Assembly: GCF_026914265.1 (NCBI RefSeq)
Contig: NC_069125.1
Coordinates: forward strand, 68,609,046-68,673,045
Source of the DNA: Mya arenaria
Taxonomy: Eukaryota > Mollusca > Bivalvia > Myida > Myidae
Direction of reading: 5' to 3'
DNA length: 64,000 nucleotides
The notes beneath the pieces were generated by a model. The model made no database searches, was not told where the DNA came from, and worked only from the letters and a program-made list of their open reading frames with translations. This document shows, piece by piece, positions 26,323-64,000 of this stretch (the first letter of the stretch is position 1; the number at the start of each line of letters is the position of its first letter). Position numbers and translations under genes: made by a program.

Positions 26323-29300
26323 CAGACTTAAAGTGAGTATTGTTTTCTTTGATTATATCTTACTGTAAACAATGCTGTTTTCCAAGCTCTTTCATTGATT
26401 ATATATTCACATAGTTTTTAAATATTTTGCCATCGCTAGTTTGTCCTAGGCTCTGACCAAATATAGATATATATATTATTTTTTTTTATCTTTTTTATCC
26501 AAAACTAATGATCTTCTTTTTCTTCTTAAGTGTTTTAAAACAAGTTCGTTTATACATGCTTTAAATTTCGAGATTTCTTTTTTTCTATATACATGTTTAT
26601 TTAGACCTAATGAGGTTTATGTCAAACACTTGTAAATATGATGAACATCTAATACAGGGTTGAAAATCTCCGTAAAGGGGCGGAACCGGTGAACAATGCT
26701 GCCATCATTGACATGATTCAAACCAATATTTTTGAAGACATAGGATGTGGTACGTAATGATAAGCTACCAAAGCCAATGCATACGAAAGACCCTAGATCA
26801 TTTGATTCATTGGGATTCAGGACTTTCCTAACTCGTAATAAACTCAGTACAATGAAACAGGATCTTCATTTTCCTTAAACTTTATTGAGCTTTTAACAAG
26901 ATTCTGGGCATTTCAATGCTTGGATCGTATTCCAAGGCCATTTATCAGAGCCAATAAACATACCTTGATAAATAGTTGATTGACAGCAACACACTTTTAA
27001 ATAAAAACGTTGCTAACAGATAAAAACCTTAAGGCAGCCATTGCTTAATTGTAGTTAATTCATATGAAATGTTTTGTCGACAGCAACACACTTTTAAATG
27101 AAAACTTTACTAAAAGATAAAAACCTTAACACAACCATTGCTCTATTCATATGAAATGGTTCATCGACATACTTTGTAAATCAATTATACCCCTGCACAC
27201 CATGTTGTTAAGGTCCCCTGTGTAGAGTGAACCCACTGACGGACCGGGGCAAGAGGTTCCAGTTGATGAAGATCCTCTGTCTCACCGTCATCCCTATCCT
27301 AGGAGTATGGGGCTTCACCATGTACTCCCTCTCAGACAGCGTCAGGAGCAAGTCGGAAATAGAAATGGTAACTTACACAAATGCAAGAAAGGGTGCAGCA
27401 TGTAAGAGTTTGTTTTCTCTCCTGCCATGTTCATGACATGTATGTGATAACTGCAAGAGTGCAGGTCGCTTAACAGTTTTCCAAGATATTTAAAAAAAAA
27501 TCGCATTAAAACATTTTTCATGTGGCAATACAGAAAAAAAAACAATGCATTCAACGCCTACGATAAATATAGAATATTGTATCATAATTGCATTAGATTC
27601 AATCAATGAATGTTTTATGTACGTGAAGTTAGCGGCCTAGCAGCCTAGCGGCCTAGCGGCCTAGCGGCCTAGCGGCGTGAAGTTAGCGGCCTGGCGGCCT
27701 AGCGGCCTAGCGGCGTGAAGTTGGCGGCCTAGCGGCCTAGCGGCCTAGCGGCCTAGCGGCCTAGCGGCCTAGCTTACGGGGTGTGTAAGCACCGAAATGT
27801 ACTTGCTATGGTAATCAGATCTCAAAATATGCACAAGTCCGATTCGGGAGAAAAGCTCCTGGCACCACAGTTTGCACAATATTGAAACAAAATAGTAACC
27901 AGCCTACAGTAGAAGTGTTCTTACACGGTACCACATTCTCCGATTTTCGAAATATGTCCGTTAAATGAAATTATCAAATAAAATATAAATCATACTCACG
28001 TTTTTTCATGTAAACATAGGGCACAGCTCCACCACGGAAGTGTCGACAGCTCTTTTTCTTTGCACCACCGTAAAGTGGTGGAGCTGGCGTTTAGACGCCG
28101 TGAGTTTGCTTGAGTTTTTTTTATACAATCAGGCAAAACAGTCTATGACGATCGTGGTCATGTTGGGTCGGCTGATCCACCGGCTGCAGCGAGAGCGGGA
28201 TATGAGCGTTCTCTACCTGAGCGACCTGGGGCCTGGAACCAAATCCTTCCTCCTAGCAGAGTACATCGCAACGGACGAGGCCATGCAGGAACTGTCCATA
28301 TGGCCAGGTATTGTATGGCACGTTATGTCTAATATAGCGTCTTAAAATCAGCCACTGGCGATATATATAGGATATATAGTATTATGCTTATCGAACGTTC
28401 GGAAAATCAGAAAGGTGCTGTCGACCTCATATGCATTGACTTCTTGTTATTGCTACAAAAATACGTCATGTTGTTTTTCGGTTCACAGTAATCTCATTTT
28501 CACTGGTCGGGTGCTTCGGTGGGACATGACATGTGCAAAGTAGTTACTTAGTGAAAAAGACACAGCCTAGATGTAGTAATCAAGTCTATAGATACACTCT
28601 TTACCATATATCATAAAGTATAGTATGCCTATATAAGAATACAGTAAACATTGGAAATTTGTATAGCCGTTTACTCATAAACACATTCTAGGCGAGTTGA
28701 AGGACAACCCCCGTGAGGAGTTCCGGTCGAAGGCGAATCTGATGTCGTACATTTCCCAGCACCGGAACTCCCTAAACCCGCTCACTGTCGACCTCTATGT
28801 GGAGATCAACTTCTACAGCTCAATCACAAGGTACATATACCTGCATTTAAGAGCGGTATACATCCAACTCGGACAGCATTCTTAATCAAATCTAGCTGGG
28901 CCAAACTCTATTGTTGAACACCACCTATAGGTCTTGTTTTACAACTACCATGCGTATTTATGACAAGGGTACTAAGTTACAAACACATTCATTATTTCAT
29001 TTGCATTATAGTTACAACCATTTGCCCCTGCCTCTTTTACAAACATGAACCAACAGCAAAGCATTTGAAAATAAAACCAATAAAATAATTTTAATTACTG
29101 TATAAAATATTACGTGCTGTTATAAATGGTAGGATTCCAAATCACCTTTATTTGTTCTAAGGACTGCAATTATTTTATGACACGTGTAAGCGAAATGTTA
29201 AGCCTAGCTTCGAAATCAGTCAAATACTTCATGTTCGTTTTGATTGCGAAGTCAGTGTTAAGACTTTACCTTCAACTCCAGTCATAATATTTCTTTACGT

Positions 29301-31422: not shown

Positions 31423-34400
31423 CAGAACTGATACATTATTTGAAGGCTTGCATTTTAAACTTTACATCTAGTGATATGTTGATGACAGTTCGTTTTGTTA
31501 TTAGGCCTTAGTGTAAATTATTTGATCTAAGCGATATCGAATTATGATAGCAAAAATTCGGTCAAGATTAATATTGTGAAGACTTTAATCACAATATACA
31601 TATCTCAAATATCCTATTAGTCAAAAAGGACAATGACATTGTTAAACAAAACCGTTCAATGAAGCCATGAAAATCTCTATGCCAAAAAATAGCTCAATAT
31701 ATCTTCCCATATTGAATGAAAAAAACAATGAATCAGTGATCGATTTCTATGAAATAACAAATGTAGAGGCTTTTTCACACACATACAGGTTATAAATAGT
31801 ATTAATAGATCATTATAATTCGTACATACCTATATATAGTTATGTCTTAAATTTATTGTAATTTTCCACCTCTCCGAAATTCCTAACAAATACATACCAA
31901 AATTCCCAATTTGACGGGTATGTGTCAAGTTTATAAATAGTCAGAAAAAAAAATCTTAAAAATAGTTCTATTTTGTACGCACAGTCATATTTATAAATAA
32001 GTCTTCCAAAATTGTTATCAGCAATTATCAAACATGATCAGACATAATAAATGTTACATTGTGTGGTTTTGATGACTTATTTTATTTCTTAATTCTATCA
32101 GTGGAAGTCTCGTATTAGTTTCACTCTATAGTACTTGGTATTACCTCTCAATTACAAACATCACTATGTCCATTGTTCAGAGAGTTCCTTGAATGGCTAG
32201 TGGAGAACATCAAAGGTTCCGGGTTTGGCTCCACGTGGAAAACTCTGGTTGCCTATCAGAAGGTCACCAGGTGCAAGGAGGACATCGGTGTCGAGCGGGC
32301 ATACGGTGCCATGTTCTATGCATACGGAGGTACGTATTTGAGTCTTGCACATATTGAAACGTTTACGATTGCCTTGTCTATTCTGATATGGTTCGAAACA
32401 AAAAATAAAATAAAAAGCCATAACATTACGTCACCCTAGTGCAATAACTCAATAACTGCATAAAGAAATTGAAGCTGATATTTAGTTCTTGCATCAAGCT
32501 GATGAAATTTATCAAATTGTTATAATAATTAAAAGTAGGTATATAAGATTATAAGTATCTTCCATGGCCGAGAGTGTAAGATAGGTTCATTCCGACCCGA
32601 GCGTAGGGTGTTTTGCGGAAACGAGGTTTACCGAGTTTCCGCAAAACACCCTGCGCGAGGGTCGGGATGAACCTATCTTACACGAGCGGCTATGGTAGAT
32701 GCTTTTTCTCCCACCTCAGTTAAACAAAATTAGGTAAAAATGTATTTTTTGCTGGAACTCTTTTGTGCTTAGTGAAAATAATTGCGAATGGATATGCGAT
32801 AATTCGTGGTTGTCATGGATATGCGCGCAGTGAATCAGATGATGTAAATAGTCAAATCGGTCTTTAAATAGTTCTAAGGAGAGTGAAGCATTATTTCTTG
32901 AAAGGTGCGTGAAAACTGTTTTATTGTGACATTTAAAGCGAAAAATAATTAATTAGCGTTCTAAGTATTGCCACAAGACAAGGTTTCCATGATGCTACAG
33001 ACGACAGTCTTTAACAAGGGAGGTAACTACAATGTGGTGACCATAAAAAGGGAGTTCCATACGGGCATTTTATCTTCGCCCGTGGGCAAGATAAGAATTT
33101 CTAGCATGGTTAAATTATTGGATCTACTTATCTGAGGTGGGAGAAAAAATGGTTAAATTTTAATTCGATGTGCTGAATAGTGTACAATATTTGTCTTATG
33201 TTTCAAGGTACTTATACTGACATACCAGCTGCTTTTTACCCGTAAATGTTTTTATTTTGGTTTCATTATTTTGTCTGGTACACAGGTTTTCCTAGCTGGA
33301 GCGACTTTGAGTTTTACAACGAGCAGATACACGACTTCAAGTACAATTACAAGACCGCTGTGTTCTACTCGGACATCGTGGTGCCCCTTCACACAGAGGA
33401 GGTCAAATCGCAGAACGAGTTCGGCCTCAACATCACTGTCATTCTTAACTACTACAGGTAAAAGTTATTGTCCAAAACATTCGTAGAACTAGTTCGGTGT
33501 CATCATTACTGTAATTCCACTAAACTATATCAGGTAGATGCCGTTGTCCAAAACATTCGCAAGTTTTCTATATGTGCATGGTACCTAATGTATTGAATCG
33601 TTATATTATTTTCTGTGTGGCTCGTTTTTGGTATTTGGCAGGTAATGTTTGTGCATGGTAGGGTACCAGATCCAGATGGCATGCGTTCCAACTAATGCAA
33701 TCCTTACATTTTCAATGGCAAATAAAATTACTTTTTTTTGGTGATTTTGAGAGTCGCAACTTTGATTTTAAAATATTTAATAATGCCAGTCCCTTACTTT
33801 ACGTTCGGCGAATACGTTGCTAATACTTGTTTACATTGTTTTAAATTGATTTCCTGCAGGAAAGAGATACAGTACCACGTGCCTGGTCAGAACTACACGT
33901 CGAACGAGAAGGCTAAGTATTTCTTCGACAATATGACAGAGTACCTGGACTCCCTCCTGCTTATACAAGAGGAGGTGGCACATAGGATCTCTGAGGAAGT
34001 GGACGTGGTCCTCGCCCAAGTCATATTCAAGGTCAAACTGGATCATTATATCATACTCCCCTCTACCTAGCTACTACCCTGTATTCGCTAGCTGGTAGTT
34101 CATGCGATACTGGCTGTGATGTTGATTTACCATCAAATATCACCATGTAATTGCTAGGTTGTAGAACATGTGGTAATGGTTATGTCGGTGATTTGTATTC
34201 CCCCCGTCTTAATGTTCTCCGTAATAGTTAGATGACATAAAATTAATTCTTAATGAAAAACAAAAGGTGGAGTGAGCGAAGCTAACGAGCCCTTCCTGTT
34301 CAATCAGAAATTACTTCAGGTCATCTATCTGACTTAGAATCGACCTCATTGGCTGATACATTGACAACGCAAAATCAAACGCAGGGAGTGTGTATCGAAT

Positions 34401-35982
34401 GAGTGGCAGTAGGCGGACCTTTAAACACCCGCGAAAGTTGAAATTCTTAATGATTAAGCGTAGTACTTGATGAATGTCTATCTGGAATTTCATTGGCTGA
34501 GAACGTATGTTCTTTTCTAATTCGTATTTCCTTACAACTATTACCATGTAATTGCTGGGTTGTAGTATGTGTGGTACTGGCTACAATGGTGATTTGTATA
34601 TGCGCCTCGTAATAATGTTCTCCTCCTAAGTACCATCTATGTATTATACACTGTTTTACTCATTTGTAGTATATGCGGTACTGGCTGTAATGTTGATGGG
34701 ATGCGCCGCGTCATAACGTTCTCCTCCCAAGTACCATCTATGTGTACCCCTATTTGTTCGCAGTACTGGCTGTGATGTTGATTTGATGTGCCCCGTCATG
34801 ATGTTTTCCTCCTAAGTATCATCTATGTGTATCCCTATTTGTTCGCAGTACTGGCTGTGATGTTGATTTGATGTGCCCCGTCATGATGTTTTCCTCCTAA
34901 GTACCATCAATGTGTACCCCTATTTGTTCGCAGTACTGGCTGTGATGTTGATTTGATGTGCCCCGTCATGATGTTTTCCTCCTAAGTACCATCTATGTAT
35001 AACCCTATTTGTTCGCAGTACTGGCTGTGATGTTGATTTGATGTGCCCCGTCATGATGTTTTCCTCCTAAGTACCATCTATGTGTATCCCTATTTGTTCG
35101 TAGTACTGGCTGTGATGTTGATTTGATGTGCCCGTCATGATGTTTTCCTCCTAAGTACCATGTACTGGCTGTGATGTTGATGGGATGTGCCACGTCATAA
35201 TGTTTTCCTCCTAAGTACCATCTATGTGTACCCCTATTTGTTCGCAGTACTTGATGTGATGTTGATGGGATGCGCCGCGTCATAACGTTCTCCTCCAAAA
35301 TACCATCTATGTGTATCCCTATTTGTTCGCAGTACTGGCTCTGATGTTGATGTGATGTGCCGCGTCATAATGTTCTCCTCCTAAATACCATCTATGTGTA
35401 CCCCTATTTGTTTGCAGTACTGGCTGTGATGTTGATGTGATGTGCCGCGTCATAATGTTCTCCTCCTAAATACCATCTATGTGTATCCCTATTTGTTCGC
35501 AGTACTGGCTGTGATGTTGATGTGATGTGCCGCGTCATAATATTCTCCTCCTAAATACCATCTATGTGTACCCATATTTGTTCGCAGTACTGACTGCGAT
35601 AGTGATTGGTATGTGTTATATCTAGGTTTCGTCTTACGTTACATCAAACTATGCTTCTGTACTTCCCAGGTTGTAGTGTACGCGGTGCTGGTTGTGGTGG
35701 TGATCGGGATGTGCCCGATCATCATGTTCTCCTCCGAGGCACTCGCCAGTGACATACAGAGATACACACAGACACTCGTCCACAAGACCACGGAACTCAA
35801 TATCGAGAAACACAAGGCTGACACTCTCCTCTTCCAGGCAAGTACCTAATGGACGGTCAGGTTCAGAGTAAAGTGGTGTAGAAAGGTTATTTTGTGGATT
35901 CTTCTTAAAAACTTTTATCATAAATGGCAGTTATAAATATATTGCAAAAATATGTATTGAAAACTTGAATGTTCTATTATAC

Positions 35983-36021
<39 letters not shown>

Positions 36022-39000
36022 CAACACCTTTACTCATTCTTAGTCGATAATAGAACAAAAATACTATGATGATTCCCCTTATGTACAAATAAAAACTATA
36101 AGAAATGGAACAGTCCAACCAGTTGAATCGCTTAATCTGTTGACGTAAACAATGAGTATAAATAAGACAACTCTCCGATATGTATTAAGTCCCTTACCTA
36201 CTCATACGACTGTAGAGATCAATAAACAGGAGACAAGGATAATATTAAACAGTTCATTGCCATCGTTTGTAAAAAACAAAAAAAAACAAAAAACACAAAA
36301 ACAAACAAAAAAAACACTATGGTTATAGTACAGGAAGATTTGAAGAGAGAAGTACATTTTTGTTGATTAACCATCAATACGGAAATAACCTTTTTTCCTT
36401 TTAAATAATTCCCTTATTTGTTGCTACAATTGATTGTCAAAGAATCTAAGATAAAACTAGACTATGTATTTGAAGAAAAGCTATCCACGGCACACTACAA
36501 TATATCATGGCGGGCAATCATTGGATCCGCCACATTTTGATATATTTTGAAAATGCTCCCACGCGTCTTTCGTTAAAGTGCCAATAAGTAGAAAATGGAC
36601 GTAAATGGTGAGTATGGCCTCTTTGTTTCAGAGATATATAGGAGTAAACTTGACTATGCGTTGTGTAAAAGTTCTAAACAAAAACCAAAGCTGATCGTCT
36701 AGAAGTTGCATAACATGTTAGATGTTAGAGCTAAATGTTGACAATTCTGGATGTTCATGAAGCGTTGTCTTTCTGTAGGTTTAAAAAGTGTCTTTACATA
36801 TTTGTAGCTTCTATTGACTGAACGTTGTCTCGTTACTTTTTGCTAGACTCGATATTGTGAACGTTGTGGTGCCAATGGGTAGGTCGTGGTGCCAATGGGT
36901 AGGTCGTGGTGCCAATGGGTAGGTCGTGGTGCCAATGGATAGGTCGTGGTGCCAATGGGTAAGTTGTGGTGGCAATGGGAAGGCTGTGGTCCCAATGGGT
37001 AGGTCGTGGTGCCAATGGGGTAGGTTGTGGTGCCAATGGGGTAGGTTGTGGTGCCAATGGGGTAGATTGTGGTGTCAGTTGGTATTATGTGGTGTCAATG
37101 GGTAGGTCGTGGTACAATTGGATAGGTCGTGGTGCGTGTCAATGGATAGGTCGTGGTACAATTGGATAGGTCGTGGTGCGTGCCAATGGATAGGTTGTGG
37201 TGCCAATGGGGTAGGTTGTGATGCCAATGGGTAGGTTGTGGTGCCAATGGGGTAGGTTGTGGTGTCAGTTGCTATTATGTGGTGTCAATGGGTAGGTCGT
37301 GGTGTCAATGGGTAGGTCGTGGTGCCAATGGGTAGGTCGTGGTGCCAATGGGGTAGGTTGTGGTGCCAATGGGTAGGTTGTGGTGCCAACGGATAGGTCG
37401 TGGTGCCAATGAGGTAGGTTGTGGTGCCAATGAGGTAGGTTGTGGTGCCAATGTGGTAGGTTGTGGTGTCAGTTGGTATGATGTGGTGCCAATGGGTAGG
37501 TCGTGGTGTCAATGGGTAGGTCGTGGTGCCAATGGGTAGGTTGTGGTGCCAATGGGTAGGTCGTGGTACAAATGGATAGGTCGTGGTGCGTGCCAATGGA
37601 TAGGTCGTGGTGCGTGCCAATGGATAGGTCGTGGTGCGTGCCAATGGATAGGTCGTGGTACCAATGGGGTTGGTTGTGGTGCCAATTGGTATGTTGTGGT
37701 GCAAATGGGGTAGGTTGTGGTGTCAGTTGGTATGATGTGGTGCCAATTGGTAGGTCGTGGTATCAATGGGTATGTCATGGTGCCAATGGGTAGGTTGTGG
37801 TGCCAATGGGTAGGTCGTGGTACAAATGGATAGGTCGTGGTGCGTGCCAATGGATAGGTCGTGGTGCCAATGGGGTAGGTTGTGGTGCTAATGGGTAGGT
37901 CGTGGTGCCAATGGATAGGTCGTGGTGCCAATGAAGAGTTGAGATTCTCAGGAGGAAACGAATGTTTTAAAAAAAGTGAAGTAATTAATTAAACGAAAAT
38001 TAACAATTAACCTAATCATTGACGATCTTTTGAAAGAATGTCGAACAAACACGCCGCTGGGTTACTTGGAGCATGATAAATCAATAAGTGAATGCAAACG
38101 ATCACTTTTAGATCTAATTCTGTATTTCCAGGTTTCTTTAGGCACAACTTGTGCAAATTTGAAGTATTCGAAGATATGATTTATTCACGTATTGTTAGTA
38201 TATTATGCATTAATACTATTTTTATTGAAAGCTAAAAGCCTCATTTGGGGACGAACTTTGACTCTTGCATACTTCGTAATAGATCTCCCATGTGTTCCCA
38301 TGCAAAACAATTGCCACTGTTAAAATAGATATTGGGTACAGTACAAATGTTCACTTTATTGTGAAGAATAGAACGGGCAAGCACGAGATATGTATGATAT
38401 CGAGAGTCGAACAGGATAAAACCCAGATTAAATCAATAATGTGCTTCAAAATTCCATTCTAGTGTCCTGTGCATTTCGTTGTGTGTGTCAGTCTCGCAAA
38501 ATGAAATAAAATATTTCTATAAGTAAGGGAAGTAACCGTACACAATATACGGATGTATCAACAGTTGGTTATCTTTACTTGTGCTCAACAAGATATACAT
38601 TTTCAACATAAACAATCCATCCCTGTCCCGATACATCTCGAAACATGATTTTTTTGGCGGAAAGGATGGAAGGTCTGGTTGCTCTATGAATTCACACGTG
38701 TGCCATCACAACTGAAAGTGAATTCAAATGTCATAACTGACATGAGCTAAAAGTGACTGTCATTTCCAGTCACACCTGAACAACAGCTGTTGAGGAACAG
38801 AATAAGATAGGAGCAGATCCGGGCACGATAACCTACCTATTTTCGAACAGCCCTCTTGGTTCTTTGGCGTGGCCGGTGTAAGGCACATATACATGAAATA
38901 CAATTGTACTGTTTTTTAAACATGCACTTAGATCACCAAATTTCCAAGATCAGAGAACCAGTCAAGGGAGAATCATTTTAAACGTACTTTGGTTTGACAA

Positions 39001-42000
39001 AGTCGGGGATTATACCCTGGATCTTCCGCAAGGGGGATGGGGTGGGCGTGATCAAGCCAGATTATAACTGAATGAACTACTCACGGTAAACTTAAATGTT
39101 TTATGTTTCTCATTGCAGCATAATCGAATATATCAGATATATTGCTCTGAATCAGTATCCATGTAAGACATTTCGTCCTTGTTCATAACTATTTGCGAAT
39201 TTCGATGTACACCGAATAAAAACACAGTATATAACAGAAATCTGGTCATCGGACTTGTTTAATAACAAGAATAGCAAAGCCGATTAAATATAGCAATTAG
39301 TCTAGAGGCACTAAGCCAAGAATGGAACGAGGACAACATTTTTGCAGTGGCTGGTATCAGCTTTACCGTCAGAGCCTGCCGTCGCCCGGTGATGGACACA
39401 CCTTCGCGTCAATGGTCCTAAGGTTATTAAACGTCATGATGCAACTCCTAACTTTTCCACCACTCCTTGTGTTGTAATGAAGCGTTCCTTGAAGTAATGA
39501 ACAACGAACAATAACATGGAAGAAAGGAAAATAGTCGTATATTTATAAAAGTGTATTTCCAGTTTTGCCCATTTTTTAAAGCTAGCCCTTTGGGCAAAGT
39601 ACTACAAATTGGATGCTATTACTCAGCATTGTATTCTGTATTCTTGATCACGCTGTCTTGTTGCTAGATTCCATTTTTGACGGCCTGTCAGCGTGGAAAT
39701 AGCCTGTCAAAAATCCCTGAATTAGTGGTCCATTACCTTTAAGACAAGGTCTGGGGTACAAACTTTTATCGAACTTGTCACTGTTGGCCATTAATTTTAT
39801 AATTCTGTGGAGTGATAATGAAATTTTCAACCGTTTGTATTTTTTAATTTAAAAATTCTTTGTAACGGTTAATAGTGAGGTATCATAAACACAAAATTGG
39901 TAGGATTTCTGAAATTGGAAATCTTAAAAACGGTTCAAATGAAAATAAAAACATTATTCGTATACAAATATCTGAAACATATATTTAAAAAAAACAAACA
40001 TTTCTACTGTGTTCAAATATATGTCGACTGGAGTGTTTTTGTATTTGTTACAAAAACACCAAAACGAGGTTAAATATATAAAGGTAATAATAAAAGGTAT
40101 ACAAATGCGCAAGCATCTTTTCATAGGACTAAGAAAAAGAGCTTCTTTCCACGAGTTAGTTTGTTAGAACACAAACGGTTTTCATGGTAATCTGCAATAC
40201 AACGACACCAAGAAGGACATACTACGCAGGCACTACGTGGAAGTCGGTCACTTTCATCACGCCATTGTGAACTATCTAACATTTCCTAAACCGCCGAAAT
40301 CCATAGATCTTTTAAACGCTAACATATTACGTAGAAAGCAACATCTCTTAATGAGTGTTGTTTGTAACAACAATAGTATATCTCCTTCTATGTCTCATTT
40401 TTCATCTTCAGATGGTACCCAAATCAATAGCAAAGAAACTACGCAGCCAGGGCACATATTCAAACTCTGACTTCTTCAAATGCGCGACGATCATGTTCGC
40501 GGACATCTTCGGGTTCAACCAGATCAGCATGGAGCTGGCCCCGGGTGAGGTGATTGACCTCATCAACACGTTCTATGGTGTGCTGGACGAGAGGATAGCC
40601 AACTACAACGTGTACAAAGTGGAAGCAATCAACGACTCCTATATGGTCGCATCCGGTGAGTGAGGGTTCGAAATATAATTGACATTTAGTTGGAAAATCA
40701 GCATTGCGTGTTGTGAGTATTGTCAAGAGCAATTTCCGAAATGACTTAACATGTTTCAGGTATACCTAACAAAGACGATAACCACGTGGCTGAGATATGC
40801 ACGCTAGCCCTGGATTTACTGCACGTGATGAACCAGACAAGTTTCAGCTTCAACACATCACGCTCCATTCACATCCGTATTGGCATTCACACAGGTAGCA
40901 CCTTTGTAGTCTAGATAGAGGGGGAGGGGCAACTGTGTAGTCTGGAGGGGGGCAATTGTGTAGTCTAGAGGGGGGGGGGGGCAACTGTGTGGTCTGGAGA
41001 AGGAACTGTGTAGTCTGAGGAGGGGCAACTGTGCAGGCTGGAGGTTGGGGACTGTGTAGGCTGGAGGGGGAACTGTGCAGTCTGGGGAGGGAATTGTGTA
41101 GTTTGGAGGGAATAAACTGTGTAGGCTGGAGGGGGTAACTGTGTAGTCTGGAGAGGGGCAACTGTGTAGGCTGGAGGGGGGAACTGTGTAGTCTGGAGGG
41201 GGGGCAACTGTGTAGGTTGGAGGGGACAACTGTGTCGTCTGGAAAGGGGAAATTGTGTAGTCTGGAGGGGGCACCTGTGTAGGCTGGAGGGGGAACTGTG
41301 CGGTCTAGGGGGGGCAACTGTGTAGGCTGGAGGGGGGGGGGTGCTGTGTAGTATGGGGGGAAACTGTGAAGTCTGGAGTGGGGGTTGGGCAACTGTGTAG
41401 TCTGTATGGGGTATCTGTGCAGTCTGGAGGGGGGCGTGTAGTATTGGGGGCAACTGTGTAGCCTGGAGTGGGGGTGGGCAACTGTGTAGTCTGGAGAGGA
41501 TTCTGTGCAGTCTGGAGGGGTAGGCAACTGTGTAGGCTGGAGGGGGAAATGTGTAGTATGGAGGAGGGGGGCAACTGTGTAGTCTGGAGTGGGGGGCAAC
41601 TGTGTAGTCTGGAGTGGGGGCAACTGTGTAGCTTGAAGGGGAAACTGTATATTCTGGAAGGGGGGCAACTGTGTAGTCTAGAGGGGGAACTGTGTAGTCT
41701 CGAGGGGAGGCAACTGTGTAGTCTGGAGGGAGGGGGGCAACTGTGTAGTCTGAATGGTGGGAGAGCTGTGTAGTCTGGCGTTGGGGGGACTGTGTAGTCT
41801 GGAGTGGGGGGCATATGTGTGGTCTGGGGTAGGGATATGTGTAGTCTAGAGTGGGTGTGGGTGGCAACTGTGTAGTCATGAGTGTTGAGGCAACTGTGTA
41901 GTCTGGAGTGGCGGGTGGAGGGGGGGCAACTGTGTAGTCTGGAGTGGGGTGGCACTGTGTAGTCTGGAGGGGGGTGTGGGGGGGGCAACTGTGAAGTCTG

Positions 42001-45000
42001 GAGTAGGGGTCAACTTTGTAGTCTGGAGTCTGGGCCACTGTGTAGTCTGGAATGGGGGGCAACTGTGAAGTCTGGAGTGGGGGCGGGGGCAACTGTGTAG
42101 TCTGGAGCGGGGGGCACTGTGTAGTCTGGAGTGGGGGGCTACTGTGTAGTCTGGAGTAGGGGAACACAGTCGTATATAGGAGTATGTCTATTACGTTGTG
42201 TAGATGTTCTCACCTTCTGAACAGATGAATTTTACTGCTTATCCATTGGGTACATTGGGTAATGACATCATTGTCGAATTCTTGTTATCGTTGTCGGGCG
42301 ACTTCATAGAATACCCATCAATTCCATTTGGAAAGTCATTTTCATAATGAAACTATACTTTGGCTCAAAATTTAACGCAAGTTTGAATATTTTTTTTCTT
42401 ATATTGAAGTGATAACTTCCGAAATATGTGATATACTGATAGTTTGGGATGACACTTATGATACTCATATATTCCTTACCAGAGTATATAAAGGTAATTC
42501 TTTCAACTACACTGCTAGAACATCAAACATCTAATATAGTTCTGAGGCTTTTTATCAATGATTTGCTAGTAAAACACAAAGCATTTTCATCTCACTAAAA
42601 CTGATGACACCATCTACCCTACCCCAAAATCACCAACATCCTACTACCCCTTCCGAAATAACATCGACGCCCTATCATTATTCTTCCTGAATATCACCAG
42701 CATCCCACCTCTTCATTTCCTCAACATCACCACCAGCCCACCTCTTCCCTTCCTTAATATTACTAACATCCCTCCTTTTCCCTGCCTCAATATCACCAGC
42801 ATCACTCGCCTTCCTCAATATCATCATAAACCTGCATATTCCCTTCCTAAATATCACAAACATCTTGCCTATTCCCTTCCTCAATATCACCAACATCCCA
42901 CCTCTTCCCTTCCCCAATATCATCAGCATCCCACCTCTTCCTTCCTCAATATCACCAACATCCCTCCTCTTCCCTTCCTCAACATCACCAGTATCCCGCC
43001 TCTTCCTTCCTCAATATCACCAGTATCCCGCCTCTTTCTTCCTCAATATCACCAACATTCCACCTCTTCTTTTCCTCAATATCACCAGCATCCCACCTCT
43101 CGCCTTCCTTAATATTACCATAATCCTGCCTTTTCCCTTCCTCAATATCACCAACATCGTACTTCTTCCCTTCCTCAATATCACCAGGATCCCTCCTCTT
43201 CACTTCCTCAATATCGCCAACATCCCACCTCTTCCCTTCCTCAATATCACCAGGATCCCGCCTCTTCCTTCCTCAATATCACCAACATTCCACCTCTTCT
43301 TTTCCTCAATATCACCAGCATCCCACCTCTCGCCTTCCTTAATATCACCATAATCCTGCCTTTTCCCTTCCTCAATATCACCAACATCCCACCACTTCCC
43401 TTTCTCAATATCACCAACATCCCTCCTCTTCCCTTCCTCAATATCACCAGTATCCCACCTCTTCCCTTCCTCAATATCACCAGTATCCGGCCTCTTCCTT
43501 CCTCAATATCACCAACATTCCACCTCTTCTTTTCCTCAATATCACCAGCATCCCACCTCTCGCCTTCCTTAATATCACCATAATCCTGCCTTTTCCCTTC
43601 CTCAATATCACCAACATCCCACCTCTTCCCTTTCTCAATATCACCAACATCCCTCCTCTTCCCTTCCTCAATATCACCGACATCCCACCTCTTCCCTTCC
43701 TCAATATCACCAACATCCCACTTCTTCCCTTCCTCAATATCACCAACATCCCACCTCTTCTTTTCCTCAATATCACCAACATCCCACCTCTTCCCTTCCT
43801 CAATATCACCAGCATCCCACCTCTTCCCTTCCTCAATACAATATCACCAACATACCACCTCTTTCCTTCCTCAATACAAAATCACCAACATCCCACCTCT
43901 TCCCTTCCTCAATATCACCAGTATCCCGCCTCTTCCTTCCTCAATATCACCAACATTCCACCTCTTCTTTTCCTCAATATCACCAGCATCCCACCTCTCG
44001 CCTTCCTTAATATCACCATAATCCTGCCTTTTCCCTTCCTCAATACCACCAACATCCCACTTCTTCCCTTCTTCAATATCACCAAGATCCCTCCTCTTCA
44101 CTTCCTCAATATCACCAACATCCCACTTCTTCCCTTCCTCAATATCACCAGGATCCCTCCTCTTCACTTCCTCAATATCACCAACATGCCACCCCTTACC
44201 TGCCTCAATATCACCAGCATCCTACCTCTTCCCTTCCTCAATATCATACGCATCCCACCTCTTCCCTTCCTCAATATCACCAACATCCCAACCCTTCCCT
44301 GCCTCAATATCACCAACATCCCACCTCTCGCCTTCCTCATTATCACCAACATCCCACCTCTCGCCTTCCTCAATATCACCAACATCCCACCTCTCACCTT
44401 CATCAATATCACCAACATCCCACCTTTCCCCTTCTTCAAAATCACCAACATCCAACCTTTCCCCTTCTTCAAAATCACCAACATCCAACCTTTCCCCTTC
44501 TTCAAAATCACCAGCATCCTACCTCTCCCCTTTTTCAAAATCACCAACATTCCACCTCTCCCCTTCCTCAAAATTACCAACATCCTACCTCTTCCCTTCC
44601 TCAAAAGCACCAACATCCTACCATTACCTTTCCTCAAAAGCACCAACATCCTACCATTACCTTTCCTCAAAAGCACCAACATCCTACCATTACCCTTCCG
44701 CAGTATCACCAACATCCTACCATTACCCTTTCCGTGTATCACAAACATCCTACCATTATCCTTCCGCAGTATCATAAACATCTTTCCATTACCCTTTCTC
44801 TGTATCACCAATATCCTACCATTACCCATTGCTCTGTATCATAAACATCCTTCCATTACCCTTTCTCAATATCACCAACATTATACCATTAACCTTTCTC
44901 TGTATCACCAACATCCTACAATCACCCTTTCCCTGTTTCACCAACATGCCACCATTGCCCTTTCTCTGTATCACCAACATCCTACCATTACTCGTTCTTT

Positions 45001-47536
45001 GTGTCACAGACATCATACCATTAGTCTTTCTCTGTATCACCAACATCCTACCATTAGTCTTTCTCTGTATCACAAACATTGTACCATTACCCGTTCTCTG
45101 TATCACCAACATCCTGCCATTAATCTTTCTTTGTATCACAAACATCCTTCCATTACCCGTTCTCTGTATCACCAACATCATGCCATTAATCTTTCTTTGT
45201 ATCACAAACATCCTTCCATTACCCTTTCTCTGTATCACCAACATCCTGCCATTAGCTTTTTTCTGTATCACCAACATCCTACCATCACACTTTCCCTTTT
45301 TCACCAACATCCTACCATTGTCGTTTCTTTTTATCACCAACATCCTACCATTGCCCTTTCTCTATCACCAACATCCTACCATTACCCGTTCTCTGTATTA
45401 CAAACATCCTACCATTACCCGTTCTCTGTATTACAAACATCCTACCATTACCCGTTCTCTGTATTACAAACATCCTACCATTACCCGTTCTCTGTATTAC
45501 AAACATCCTACCATTACCCGTTCTCTGTATTACAAACATCCTACCATTACCCGTTCTCTGTATCACAAACATCCTACCATTAGTCTTTGTCTGTATCACA
45601 AACATCCTTCTATTGCCCGTTCCCTGTATCACCAACATCCTTCCACAATCCTTCACCAATACCACTACCATGTCCTTCCTTGAGAAAGAGGCTGTTTTCC
45701 ATATCCAATATTACTGTTTACAGGTCCATGTCGAGCTGGTGTTATAGGAACTGTCATGCTCAAATACTGTCTGTTCGGGGAGGCAGTGTTTGTAGCCAGT
45801 CGTATGAAGCTCAAAGGCCTTCGTAAGTCACAAACAACAGTTATCTTAATGCGTTTACTTAAAATATTTTAAGTCGTAAAACAATGTTTTGAACTGTTTT
45901 CTATTACTCTTTACCAATTATACATTTTGTGTGAGAGTGGTTTTAATTTTTTGCCAATTTAATATTTTGTTAAATTGTGATTTCAATTCCTCCGTGGTAG
46001 AACAACATTGGAAAATGATATTGCAATAAATCGCAAATGCAATAGTTAATAGGTGCAATTTCATCACAAATGATGTATTTTCAATGATAAATGATTTCAT
46101 TTCTTTGAAGGTGGCTTAAATACACTTATACTCATGCCATAGTCTACAAGAAATTCGTTCTAGTTTTTTTTAACGTAACCTGGTTGTGAGTGTGCTTGAA
46201 AGGTGTGGAATCACGACGATTCTGTCCTTTCAATGAGGAATAACATGACAAATGCATTGAAAGTGCAAAGAAGGGAAATCATGCGTCACTTATGATCTGT
46301 ACAAATGCTCATAAAATGTTACAAGAGCGTTATTTGGCAGTAATTTGTATTTACCTACTTAAGTTTGCCATATCTTTCAGCCAACAAGGTGCATATCAGC
46401 GATAAGACAGTTGCATTTCTTATGAAGAGCGGTCGATTCAAAACGAAATGTCGAGGTTCAGTCGACCTTTCAGTAAGAACATTTGAATTTAATACGTGAT
46501 TAAGAGGCTAACGTAAGTACTTGTGTGAAAACGTTAAGAGTACAGTTTATAACTGCACCATTCAAAAACATTTTCATATCTCAGATTTAGTCCAGAAAGA
46601 CAAATAGAGGGCTTCAAAAAGCGTAATCGAAGCAAACTACATGAAAAGAAAATTTAAGATGATGTTATTAGAAATCGATTTATTAGTAAAGCTAAACGTT
46701 GATGTCTGTAAACGGTCTGTGAATCATTTCGTTTCGTAACAGTACGTGCTTGAGACCAAATGCAATCCATATATAAAGTAGCCAACTTTTGTAGGCTCGT
46801 TTTTCGAACAATTATACCAAACAAGTCACGTTTGTGAAGGTGAATTAATCTTTAAATCAACGCCATAGTTTTATGTAGCATGTATATCCAAGACATTCTA
46901 TTGTTCTTTATGTTGAAAGGGCCCTTGGGGATGGCCTAGACCCCGTGGTCCGTATTGCGGGTCAAATAAAAGAGGTCTTCGAGGCCTCAAAGATTATTTG
47001 AAAAATGTATGTATGTATGAATGTTTCATACATCTGCAGAGCCAATTGCGGATGACGACGCACTGGCTGTTGGACAGGCACGAGTTTGACACGGGAAACC
47101 TGGGCGACTCAGGGAGAAAGAAGCGCGAGTCTTTCGAGGAGAACATGGACAAGTACAAAGACGTGAAGAGAAATTCATACCAAAGCGTAACCTCAAGTAC
47201 GTATACCAGTGTACCTGGGGATTGAAGTTCGTACATTTCGGATCCAATATAGCATTCCACATTTTACGAAAACTCCCGATTTGAAAATATAGTTTTCGCA
47301 AGATGGTTTAAATTTCTAACAAACCATATCAGCTCGAATAGGCCTAAGAGGTCCTAGTCCCACATCGCAGACACCCTTTATCCCATATTCGCTATGTTGA
47401 AATCAGTTACCTAAGCCCCCATGCATGTTGTTATTTTCTAGACGAGAGCGTAGCCATCGAGAAGGCGGTGCCGCCGTCTCTGCTGCAGATGCCTATAAAT
47501 GAGTGGAAAGAGGAGGAGATCTTCGACAAGTATTGA
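26319..47536 (+). CDS. NIT-domain receptor guanylate cyclase (15 exons, 680 residues)
   Basis: Exons: 26319-26332, 26658-26749, 27228-27367, 28133-28307, 28692-28830, 32181-32329, 33286-33457, 33860-34031, 35670-35837, 40412-40655, 40760-40894, 45724-45822, 46381-46472, 47040-47196, 47442-47536 (TGA). All phases join without a stop, total 681 codons. Order: short cytosolic N-terminus, TM1 (about 48-68), extracellular NIT domain (about 85-340, opening LIHRLQRERDMSVLYLS), TM2 (352-371), linker with KADTLLFQMVPKSIA, cyclase domain (about 428-608), tail. There is no kinase-homology domain. Family role: makes cGMP; NIT domains bind nitrate/nitrite in bacteria, and NIT cyclases in marine invertebrates are tied to nitric-oxide signalling. 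Metal Asp438 and Asp482, and guanine-selecting Glu478 and Cys549, are present, but the transition-state Asn is Phe556 and the phosphate Lys is Ser597. Exon 1 is the least certain; intron 9 uses a GC donor. Confidence 0.92.
27622..27773. repeat. GCGGCCTAG 9-bp tandem array in cyclase intron 3
   Basis: About 15 nonamers of gcggcctag, interrupted by gcggcgtgaagtt spacers. The same word and the same spacer, preceded by tgtacgtgaagtta, reappear in LPMO intron 1 at 50268-50445. It is strongly CpG-rich in an AT-rich setting. Confidence 0.95.
27890..28110. repeat. Dispersed repeat, copy 1, with terminal hairpin (cyclase intron 3)
   Basis: Diverged direct match to 31130-31340. Shared order of words: ccgattt..aaata, ataatcatactcacgtttt-like, then a hairpin. 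Here the hairpin arms are cagctccaccac (about 28024-28035) and gtggtggagctg (about 28075-28086). It ends about 25-45 bases before the acceptor of exon 4. Confidence 0.6.
30340..30560. repeat. Probable common molluscan interspersed repeat fragment (cyclase intron 5)
   Basis: Contains aagggtggcatatagttaat, cctcaaacttggtagaggtc and tcaaggtcgtggtgacc, a word order I recognise as typical of abundant dispersed repeats in bivalve genomes. The family name cannot be fixed without a library search. Confidence 0.45.
31130..31340. repeat. Dispersed repeat, copy 2 (cyclase intron 5)
   Basis: Diverged partner of 27890-28110; its hairpin reads cagctccttaaagagctg near 31303-31320. The two copies lie in the same orientation in neighbouring introns of one gene. 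Confidence 0.55.
31386..31417. repeat. Homopolymer A tract of about 32 bases
   Basis: An unbroken A run in cyclase intron 5. It could be a retroposon tail, but no element body with target-site repeats was recognised next to it. Confidence 0.85.
32555..33147 (-). repeat. Palindrome-bearing dispersed element, copy 2 (cyclase intron 6)
   Basis: Inverted match to 4096-4664. Here the inverted ends of the body are clear: tttttctcccacctcagtta at about 32704 and ttatctgaggtgggagaaaaa at about 33127-33147. The adjoining module at about 32563-32700 is a nested palindrome, with outer arms gagtgtaagataggttca and tgaacctatcttacacgag and an inner pair around gtgttttgcggaaacgagg. Confidence 0.82.
34086..35600 (+). 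repeat. ~86-bp tandem array of decayed cyclase exon-9 (TM2) copies in intron 8
   Basis: About 15 units fill nearly all of intron 8 (34032-35669). The copy at about 34554 aligns in order with the start of real exon 9 (35670): gttgtagt, then ggt-ctgg, then ggtgat, then atg-gcc, then atgttctcctcc. Most units also keep a splice-acceptor-like ttgttcgcag before the exon-like part, then tactggctgtgatgttgat and catgatgttttcctcctaa. Stops in every unit show they are not coding. An unrelated insertion at about 34210-34540 separates two early copies. Confidence 0.85.
35670..35837 (+). other. Cyclase exon 9: TM2 and signalling-helix linker
   Basis: A 56-codon exon in phase 0 encoding VVVYAVLVVVVIGMCPIIMF (TM2) and a helical linker ending KADTLLFQ. 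Exon 10 continues directly with MVPKSIAKKL, matching the DTLLYQMLPKSVA stretch of receptor cyclases. The donor is GCAAGT rather than GT; reading through it gives a stop after three codons. Confidence 0.88.
35979..36018. repeat. (TA)n microsatellite
   Basis: A TA dinucleotide run of about 36-40 bases in cyclase intron 9. Confidence 0.9.
36865..37940. repeat. ~20-bp minisatellite in cyclase intron 9
   Basis: About 53 units of ggtcgtggtgccaatgggta with variants (ggttgtggtgccaatggggt, tggtacaaatggatagg, gtgcgtgccaatggata, gtcagttggtattatg). Some multi-unit blocks recur, for example near 37440-37560 and 37720-37870, suggesting higher-order duplication. Confidence 0.93.
38000..40411. other. Rest of cyclase intron 9
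   Basis: No exon or repeat family recognised. A small inverted repeat, gtgtttttgta facing tacaaaaacac, lies at about 40033-40058. An open frame at 40237-40470 crosses the exon 10 acceptor out of frame and is not considered real. Confidence 0.5.
40895..42165 (+). repeat. G-rich minisatellite at the start of cyclase intron 11
   Basis: About 45 units of caactgtgtagtctggag followed by a run of 3-10 G. The first diverged unit (gcacctttgtagtctagatag) begins within a few bases of the exon 11 donor at 40895. The G runs are on the transcribed gene's sense strand and meet the G-quadruplex pattern many times over. Pro/Leu/Thr/Gln-rich open frames on the minus strand are by-products. Confidence 0.95.
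42640..44690. repeat. 33-bp pyrimidine-rich array in cyclase intron 11, type A
   Basis: Units of tcaatatcaccaacatccca plus cctcttcccttcc. A block of several variant units (attccacctcttcttttc, then ccacctctcgccttcc, then taatcctgccttttcc) recurs near 43040-43140, 43270-43370, 43500-43600 and 43935-44035, showing higher-order repeats. Open frames on both strands (for example 42865-43353) follow from the 33-base period. Confidence 0.94.
44690..45650. repeat. 33-bp array in cyclase intron 11, type B
   Basis: Units of catcctaccattacccgttc plus tctgtatcacaaa; it clearly derives from type A (shared tatcaccaacatcc core), with a gradual change near 44600-44720. Six nearly identical units at about 45370-45560 mark the most recent expansion. 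The array stops about 70 bases before the acceptor of exon 12. Confidence 0.94.
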
Positions 47537-62036: not shown

Positions 62037-64000
62037 GTACGTACAGTTTTATAAACACACATACCGTGGTTGGGGTACGTACAGTTTTATACGTGTATGA
62101 TTACACTTGACAATTACACATACCGTGGTTGGGGTACGTACAGTTTTATACACGAATGATTAAACTTGATAAACACACATACCGTGGTTGGGGTACGTAC
62201 AGTTTTATACACGAATTATTACACTTGATAAACACACATACCGTGGTTGGGGTACGTACAGTTTTATACACGTACGATTACACTTGATAAACACACATAC
62301 CGTGGTTGGGGTACGTACAGTTTTATACACGAATGATTACACTTGATAAACACGAATACCGTGGTTGGGGTACGTACAGTTTTATACACGTATGATTACA
62401 CTTGATAAACACGAATACCGTGGTTGGGGTACGTACAGTTTTATACACGAATGATTACACTTGACAATTACACATACCGTGGTTGGGGTACGTACAGTTT
62501 TATACACGAATGATTACACTTGACAATTACACATACCGTGGTTGGGGTACGTACAGTTTTATACACGAATGATTACACTTGATAAACACACATACCGTGG
62601 TTGGGGTACGTACAGTTTTATACACGAATGATTACACTTGACAATTACACATACCGTGGTTGGGGTACGTACAGTTTTATACACGAATGATTAAACTTGA
62701 TAAACACACATACCGTGGTTGGGGTACGTACAGTTTTATACACGAATGATTACACTTGATTAACACACATACCGTGGTTGGGGTACGTACAGTTTTATAC
62801 ACGTATGATTACACTTGACAATCACATATACCGTGGTTGGGGTACGTACAGTTTTATACACGAATGATTACACTTGACAATCACATATACCGTGGTTGGG
62901 GTACGTACAGTTTTATACACGAATGATTACACTTGATAAACACACATACCGTGGTTGGGGTACGTACAGTTTTATACACGAATGATTACACTTGACAATT
63001 ACACATACCGTGGTTGGGGTACGTACAGTTTTATACACGAATGATTAAACTTGATAAACACACATACCGTGGTTGGGGTACGTACAGTTTTATACACGAA
63101 TGATTACACTTGATAAACACACATACCGTGGTTGGGGTACGTACAGTTTTATACACGTATGATTACACTTGACAATCACATATACCGTGGTTGGGGTACG
63201 TACAGTTTTATACACGAATGATTACACTTGACAATCACATATACCGTGGTTGGGGTACGTACAGTTTTATACACGAATTATTACACTTGATAAACACACA
63301 TACCGTGGTTGGGGTACGTACAGTTTTATACACGAATGATTACACTTGATAAACACACATACCGTGTTGTGGGTACGTACATTTTTATACACGAATGATT
63401 ACACTTGATAAACACACATACCGTGGTTGGGGTACGTACAGTTTTATACACGTATGATTACACTTGATTAACACACATACCGTGGTTGGGGTACGTACAG
63501 TTTTATACACGTATGATTACACTTGATAAACACACATACCGTGGTTGGGGTACGTACAGTTTTATACACGAATGATTACACTTGATAAACACACATACCG
63601 TGGTTGGGGTACGTACAGTTTTATACACGAATGATTACACTTGATAAACACACATACCGTGGTTGGGGTACGTACAGTTTTATACACGAATGATTACACT
63701 TGATAAACACACATACCGTGGTTGGGGTACGTACATTTTTATACACGAATGATTACACTTGACAATTACACATACCGTGGTTGGGGTACGTACAGTTTTA
63801 TACACGAATGATTACACTTGACAAACACACATACCGTGGTTGGGGTACGTACAGTTTTATACACGAATGATTACACTTGATAAACACACATACCGTGGTT
63901 GGGGTACGTACAGTTTTATACACGAATGATTACACTTGATTAACACACATACCGTGGTTGGGGTACGTACAGTTTTATACACGAATGATTACACTTGACA
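62037..64000 (+). repeat. 59-bp array made from the splice-donor region of the LPMO-like gene; continues past the window
   Basis: The intron begins gtacgtacagttttata, and the same words open every following unit: gggtacgtacagttttatac, acgaatgattacacttgat, aaacacacataccgtggttg. The first unit is short (about 38 bases), later ones are 59 bases; about 33 units are in the window. Units are nearly identical, with alternating variants (gaatgatt or gtatgatt; gataaacacac, gacaattacac or gacaatcacat), implying recent expansion and multi-unit duplication. Confidence 0.97.

Follow-up and report, generated by a model that had tools for sequence, protein, structure and literature searches.

The window analysed here is a 64,000-nucleotide stretch of the genome of the bivalve Mya arenaria (contig NC_069125.1, forward-strand positions 68,609,046 to 68,673,045), and coordinates refer to it unless another locus is named. 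The predicted domains mark the gene under study as a guanylate cyclase that also carries a NIT (nitrate and nitrite sensing) domain. Its intron 8 holds, as a tandem array, 15 non-overlapping partial copies of the opening ~75 bases of the following exon, exon 9. Judged by its sequence, the array is a 'mirage' minisatellite, a seldom reported kind already known from amphioxus, and forms a new member of that kind in a bivalve. We consider it very probable that the array arose by tandem duplication of the intron-exon boundary and then grew and decayed within the intron, most likely neutrally. The numbering of intron 8 and of exons 7, 8 and 9 follows a preliminary description of the same DNA. The copies are designated u01 to u15, and the coordinates of all features are collected in Table 1.

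Table 1 Features of the array, its host gene and related loci.
Feature	Position	Strand	Remarks
Exon 7 (start approximate)	33260..33457	+	3' edge from 33414, with its donor, is the source of the donor-side copy
Donor-side copy	33487..33559	+	Copy of 33414-33483 with copied CAG/GTAGAT donor; 55/73 identical, E 1.3e-9
Exon 8 (upstream exon)	33860..34031	+	Ends ...VLAQVIFK, phase 0; protein matches of 69% and 66% in two paralogues
Host intron, 1638 bases	34032..35669	+	Likely donor AAG/GTCAAA (weak), acceptor CCCAG/GTTGTA; approximate-matrix scores
Copy u01	34079..34126	+	Spans acceptor homologue, CTAG kept; 34/48 to exon edge, score 40
Copy u02	34146..34220	+	Spans acceptor homologue, CTAG kept; 52/75 to exon edge
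Dispersed ~300-bp repeat between u02 and u03	34221..34523		36/303 differences from consensus of five other copies
Copy u03	34547..34633	+	Reaches acceptor region, AG lost; 60/87
Copy u04	34651..34734	+	Reaches acceptor region, AG lost; shares one-base deletion with u05-u14; 63/86
Core block u05-u09	34755..35151	+	85-bp period; 97-100% mutual identity over aligned part
Intermediate units u10-u11	35155..35296	+	Shortened 59-bp spacing before u10
Core block u12-u14	35324..35551	+	97% mutual identity
Truncated last copy u15	35579..35615	+	Without the u04-u14 deletion; 27/37, score 34, level with best controls
Exon 9 (source exon)	35670..35837	+	VVVYAVLVVVVIGMCPIIMFSSEALAS..., transmembrane segment; five other genomic matches, 38-82% identity
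Irregular smaller copy set	L033 1058-1273		Equivalent intron of paralogue B; one copy spans acceptor
Decayed, internally shortened copy	L035 1716-1804		Paralogue C, upstream of cyclase-domain exon
Decayed boundary copy	L036 5988-6091		Paralogue E, downstream of corresponding cyclase-domain exon; 75/104

Host gene

Four of ten open frames of the window scanned against Pfam gave matches, with the NIT domain at 27989-28345 and the cyclase domain at 40355-40663, 40750-40914 and 45684-45872. Ten further open frames compared with Pfam yielded one weak WD40/WDR3 match only. As the preliminary description had proposed, exon 9 encodes a transmembrane segment, with a 19-residue hydropathy of 2.93. Exon 9 apparently ends in CAG/GCAAGT (window 35835-35843), so that the next intron would be of the GC-AG type. 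The genome searched comprised 1,216,080,610 bases on 18 contigs, and no neighbouring tandem paralogue was found at E 0.01 within 40 kb on either side.

Copies of the exon edge in intron 8

The copies were located by iterative local alignment, with the exon edge (35651-35745) as query and the intron (34036-35650) as target. All 15 lie on the exon strand, are 69-78% identical to the exon edge and reach scores of 34-74, and BLASTN agrees on the copies in the intron. The highest score among 1000 dinucleotide shuffles of the exon edge was 35, and the best among 653 other 95-base stretches of the window used as queries was 34; 14 of the 15 copies exceed both controls, the exception being u15 (score 34). 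Markov resamples, 500 each at orders 1, 2 and 3, reached maxima of 43, 38 and 43. Above 43 lie 13 of the 15 copies, with u01 (40) and u15 (34) below. The preliminary description had held that about 15 decayed copies of the exon edge fill the intron, and had named similarity no better than that of shuffled sequence as grounds for rejecting this view. The number of copies was borne out, and their scores lie well above those of shuffled sequence. Some of its measurements needed correction: it gave a unit of ~86 bp where the regular period is 85 bp, set the start at 34086 although the first copy opens at 34079 and the intron most probably at 34032, and took the intron to be almost wholly array, of whose 1638 bases 937 are aligned to the exon and 303 belong to a dispersed element.

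The units are homologous to the exon edge and collinear with it, as had been noted, but the acceptor is reached by four of the 15 only. These boundary-spanning copies, u01-u04, align from 35657/35658 through the acceptor, whereas in the other 11, u05-u15, the alignment begins only at exon base 8 or 9 (35677/35678). The copies stop near base 73 of the 168-base exon. A one-base deletion carried by u04-u14 shifts the exon frame and is absent from u02, u03 and u15. Over their aligned part u06-u08 are 100% identical, while u01-u03 and u15 are divergent, a pattern expected of array turnover. The blocks u05-u09 and u12-u14 are 89-91% identical to one another.

The array is interrupted by a dispersed element that has many copies in the genome (40 of 4488 candidate places were scored). 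Its alignment used seven copies, one of them poorly aligned, and a search for inverted termini on the element gave short matches only. As the element is inserted between u02 and u03, the first duplications are probably older than the insertion. A genome search with array DNA, in which very common words were skipped, matched only the array itself and u03, and on this result membership of a wide repeat family was rejected. A structured RNA was considered and rejected as well, Rfam giving no match at E 1 for 33800-36000.

Direction of copying

The five other places matched by exon 9, paralogues A to E, all lie on contig 14 (A at 82% identity, the others at 38-64%). In paralogue A the conserved exon is preceded by an intron of ~230 bases, in which no exon-edge copy was detected: the best score was 18, 500 mononucleotide shuffles reached up to 31 (P 0.34), and the scan of exons described below gave no hit there either. 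Paralogues C, D and E have no intron at this place, the region being part of one long open frame, and no copy of the exon 9 edge was found in the surrounding DNA examined. Conservation of the exon where copies are lacking shows that it exists independently of the array, and the direction of copying is from exon to array. At each of the three loci (L035, L036 and L037) a single open frame of 418-510 codons corresponds to several exons of the window gene, so that this gene family has gained or lost introns.

In paralogue B (L033) an 814-base intron gives four alignments to B's own exon edge, with scores of 58, 50, 35 and 26. The best copy (L033 1058-1104) runs through the acceptor and is 38/47 identical. 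The score of 58 was reached neither by 1000 order-1 resamples of the exon (maximum 39) nor by 1000 order-2 resamples (maximum 56), and resampled B introns gave a maximum of 45, none reaching 58. When units were compared with exons, all six window units compared, out of 15, were closest to the window exon, and all three B units to the B exon. The informative sites are those at which the window exon is unlike both paralogues. There the six window units match the window exon 31 times, a paralogue six times and neither three times; the three B units show 0, 2 and 0 agreements with the window exon and 4, 0 and 5 with a paralogue. The two arrays would thus most simply have arisen separately.

Splice sites and possible function

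The donor and acceptor matrices used here are approximations, and the scores should be read accordingly. With these matrices the true acceptor of exon 9 reaches 10.2 bits, against 7.0 for the best AG of the array. It ranks at the top of 56 AGs in the intron and exon, and fourth of the 2857 AGs of the window.

The preliminary description saw in the array a ladder of decoy acceptors and reported an acceptor-like ttgttcgcag in most units. The motif is indeed frequent: TTGTTCGCAG occurs exactly eight times, with two further one-base variants, and thus marks ten of the 15 units. It aligns, however, to the exon-internal TGTACGCGG from 35677 onward ('ttgttcgcag' against 'tgtacgcgg' in the exon). The AG is therefore a new mutation in exon-internal sequence rather than an inherited acceptor, and an inherited AG is kept only in u01 and u02, so that a ladder of copied acceptors is not supported. 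The ten sites score 4.9-7.0 bits, and 150 of the 2857 window AGs surpass the best of them, so that nothing sets the array AGs apart as decoys. If the upstream exon were spliced to any of the ten, translation would read one to three codons and then meet a stop. In the preceding intron, use of the copied donor would lead straight into TAA, with the open frame ending at 33461. Use of the array AGs or of the copied donor would, on these readings, be wasteful. Site scores and reading frames were searched for a sign of function and gave none for the array, which is most likely neutral intron sequence without a regulatory role.

Origin of the array and alternative explanations

We postulate that the first duplications arose when replication slipped or exchange was unequal, and that the repetitive GTG/GTT codons for the valine-rich membrane segment may have favoured this. 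Slippage or unequal exchange at this edge, with array turnover afterwards, accounts best for the data and is suggested by the edge sequence together with the presence of arrays in two paralogues there. A frame-shifted form, whose exon-like part starts 7 bases into the exon, makes up the 85-bp array with its locally homogenised blocks, and unequal exchange would have driven the subsequent turnover. Because the real acceptor is stronger, the splicing machinery presumably ignores the array.

Several observations weigh against this account. Since u05-u15 lack the acceptor, the unit that was amplified is strictly an exon piece plus spacer and not the boundary. The tree of units, which the preliminary description had called for, was built, and it offers little resolution, with 10 of its 11 inner branches below 80. 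The slippage mechanism itself is something we only infer; moreover, the copies at exon 7 and in paralogues C and E are not explained by a GTG-based process, their edges not being GTG-rich by eye. Paralogue B is the weaker case. Of its four alignments, two lie above the order-1 maximum of 39 and only the best above that of order 2 (56); when its GTG-rich exon edge was resampled at order 3, a score of 58 came up in 8 of 1000 cases, and one B unit agrees with the window exon at its only two informative sites.

Among the alternatives, a functional ladder, in which the array AGs compete with the real acceptor or slow its choice and so tune the amount of functional cyclase, appears very unlikely to us. 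In ten of the 15 units TTGTTCGCAG, or a form that differs from it by one base, does come with a pyrimidine-rich lead, a CTAA stands 37 bases upstream in eight of the ten sites, and decoy use would give YWL-stop or similar, which could feed message decay. Yet these AGs were not inherited as acceptors, their best score of 7.0 bits falls short of parity with the real site, and the identity of the units, being probably the product of array turnover, gives no sign of selection on the AG. The amphioxus mirages, too, seem to leave splicing undisturbed in the passages describing them (PMC3087553, PMC3902484). A similarly slight likelihood attaches to a decayed cassette of alternative exons, in which whole-exon duplicates once offered alternative membrane segments. 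It could appeal to u02, which retains an acceptor-like CTAG and is open in the exon frame over 21 aligned codons (VVEHVVMVMSVICIPPVLMFS; 10/21 residues identical). Random mutation would leave 68% of copies with an open frame of this sort, however, which is thus no sign of selection; u04-u14 are frame-shifted, and no copy extends beyond about base 73, so that whole-exon copying with both splice sites was not observed.

The two remaining alternatives are extremely improbable. That the start of exon 9 was recruited from an older intronic minisatellite would account for an array that both adjoins and resembles the exon, but the paralogues already contradict it: A, C, D and E all conserve the transmembrane segment, with no copy found in the DNA around it, and the compared units resemble the window exon most. 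Coincidental or low-complexity similarity, or an error of assembly, could be argued from the GTG/GTT-rich exon edge and from u15, u01 (in one control) and parts of paralogue B, which lie near the level of chance. Against it, 13 of the 15 window copies beat every control, and units that differ mutually by at least 20% are not assembly errors, although mis-assembly could still affect the number of copies in the identical stretch u06-u08. Tandem boundary duplication followed by neutral growth and decay is the reading that we retain.

Further boundary copies and their frequency

Exon-edge copies were also sought around other exons, in flanks of 3 kb on each side, or of less where the sequence analysed came to an end. 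The scan covered 63 match intervals: 36 from paralogues (20 distinct open frames), 10 from the window and 17 from ion channels. The window intervals were chosen by hand, and nine of the ten are backed by a Pfam or paralogue match, 47090-47200 being the exception. Seven of the 17 ion-channel intervals contain stop codons and so straddle introns.

Nearby boundary copies were found at 5 of the 30 distinct exons of the cyclase family, namely window exon 9, exon 9 of paralogue B, window exon 7 (on its donor side) and the cyclase-domain exons of C and E. The hits shown for these five are all on the exon strand. The best E of each is at most 1.24e-6, whereas at E 0.01 hits came from 27 of 1260 shuffled exons, none of them below 4.3e-5. 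At exon 7 the copied donor scores 6.6 against 7.1 for the real donor with the approximate matrix. None of the 17 ion-channel intervals showed boundary copies, and the difference from 5/30 is not significant (Fisher P 0.14). As window exon 9 was the starting case, the unbiased count for the family is 4/29. On these alignments, exon-edge copying seems to have happened several times in the genome.

Other tandem arrays occur in the window. Among 15 arrays with a period of at least 18 (merged by hand), only the intron 8 array matches an exon in a comparison that covered the known exons of the cyclase gene. The cyclase gene holds other large minisatellites at 42609-45645, 40898-42163 and 36866-37933, with units of ~33, ~23 and ~20 bp, and at E 0.01 these had no match elsewhere in the window. 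A 59-bp tandem array of 33 copies with 95% matches occupies 62051-63998 and runs to the window end.

We suggest, with confidence somewhat short of even, that an active route from exon to intron may operate outside chordates, in which acceptor and donor edges are repeatedly and independently copied, amplified and decayed, which has marked about one in seven cyclase-family exons, and for which valine-rich (GTG) membrane-segment edges are hot spots. If so, mirages would in general help introns to grow and new splice sites to arise, rather than being an oddity of amphioxus. Besides the 15-unit clam case, a paralogue carries a second array at the corresponding exon edge, and the family shows three more boundary copies; together they suggest a recurrent and measurable process, and it becomes testable how frequently an exon edge gives rise to intron growth, to new splice sites or to new introns.

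Comparison with known systems

The preliminary description knew of no standard name for this arrangement, but 'mirage' minisatellites had already been described as tandem duplications of an intron-exon boundary (PMC3087553, PMC3902484). The comparisons below refer to the passages of the published accounts cited here. Amphioxus mirages lie in the globin genes BflGb6 and BflGb9 and in Adh (PMC3087553, PMC3902484), to which PMC3902484 adds PGBD5 and cites troponin C. In the open-licence literature searched, the term was met in this sense in these two papers only, both on cephalochordates (PMC3087553, PMC3902484).

The clam array shares with the amphioxus mirages its tandem boundary copies in the intron adjoining the authentic exon and its AG-bearing repeats, here in 10 of 15 units, though these AGs are not inherited acceptors. 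Mirage units are reported to evolve in concert except for the edge units (PMC3087553), and here too the array interior is homogenised and the edge units are divergent. As in BflGb9, donor-side copying occurs as well, here at 33487-33559. The clam array is longer, with 15 units against six and three in the two haplotypes of BflGb6, and its units are more decayed. In contrast to the amphioxus mirages, the majority of units start within the exon, without the acceptor; the array is split by a dispersed element, one paralogue possesses an array too, boundary copies recur within one gene family, and the host is a bivalve.

Related processes are known from other systems. Human segmental-duplication genes contain variable internal tandem repeats at exon-intron boundaries (PMC2812944), which likewise are minisatellite-like, touch these boundaries and may activate cryptic splice sites; the account deals with repeats within or at exons and with how new introns form, whereas the clam copies are decayed and lie inside an existing intron. 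In the Rogers model, an intron is gained when a genomic segment that contains AG/GT is duplicated in tandem (cited in PMC3087553). Here, too, duplicated splice-site-bearing segments adjoin an exon, but nothing points to an origin of the host intron's boundaries from the copies, and thus to an intron gain. Intron 3 of an abalone TSSK1-like gene carries an ordinary 27-bp minisatellite array (PMC6905558) and so resembles the clam case as a tandem array within an intron; the cited passages of that account describe no exonic origin, whereas the clam unit derives from the neighbouring coding exon.

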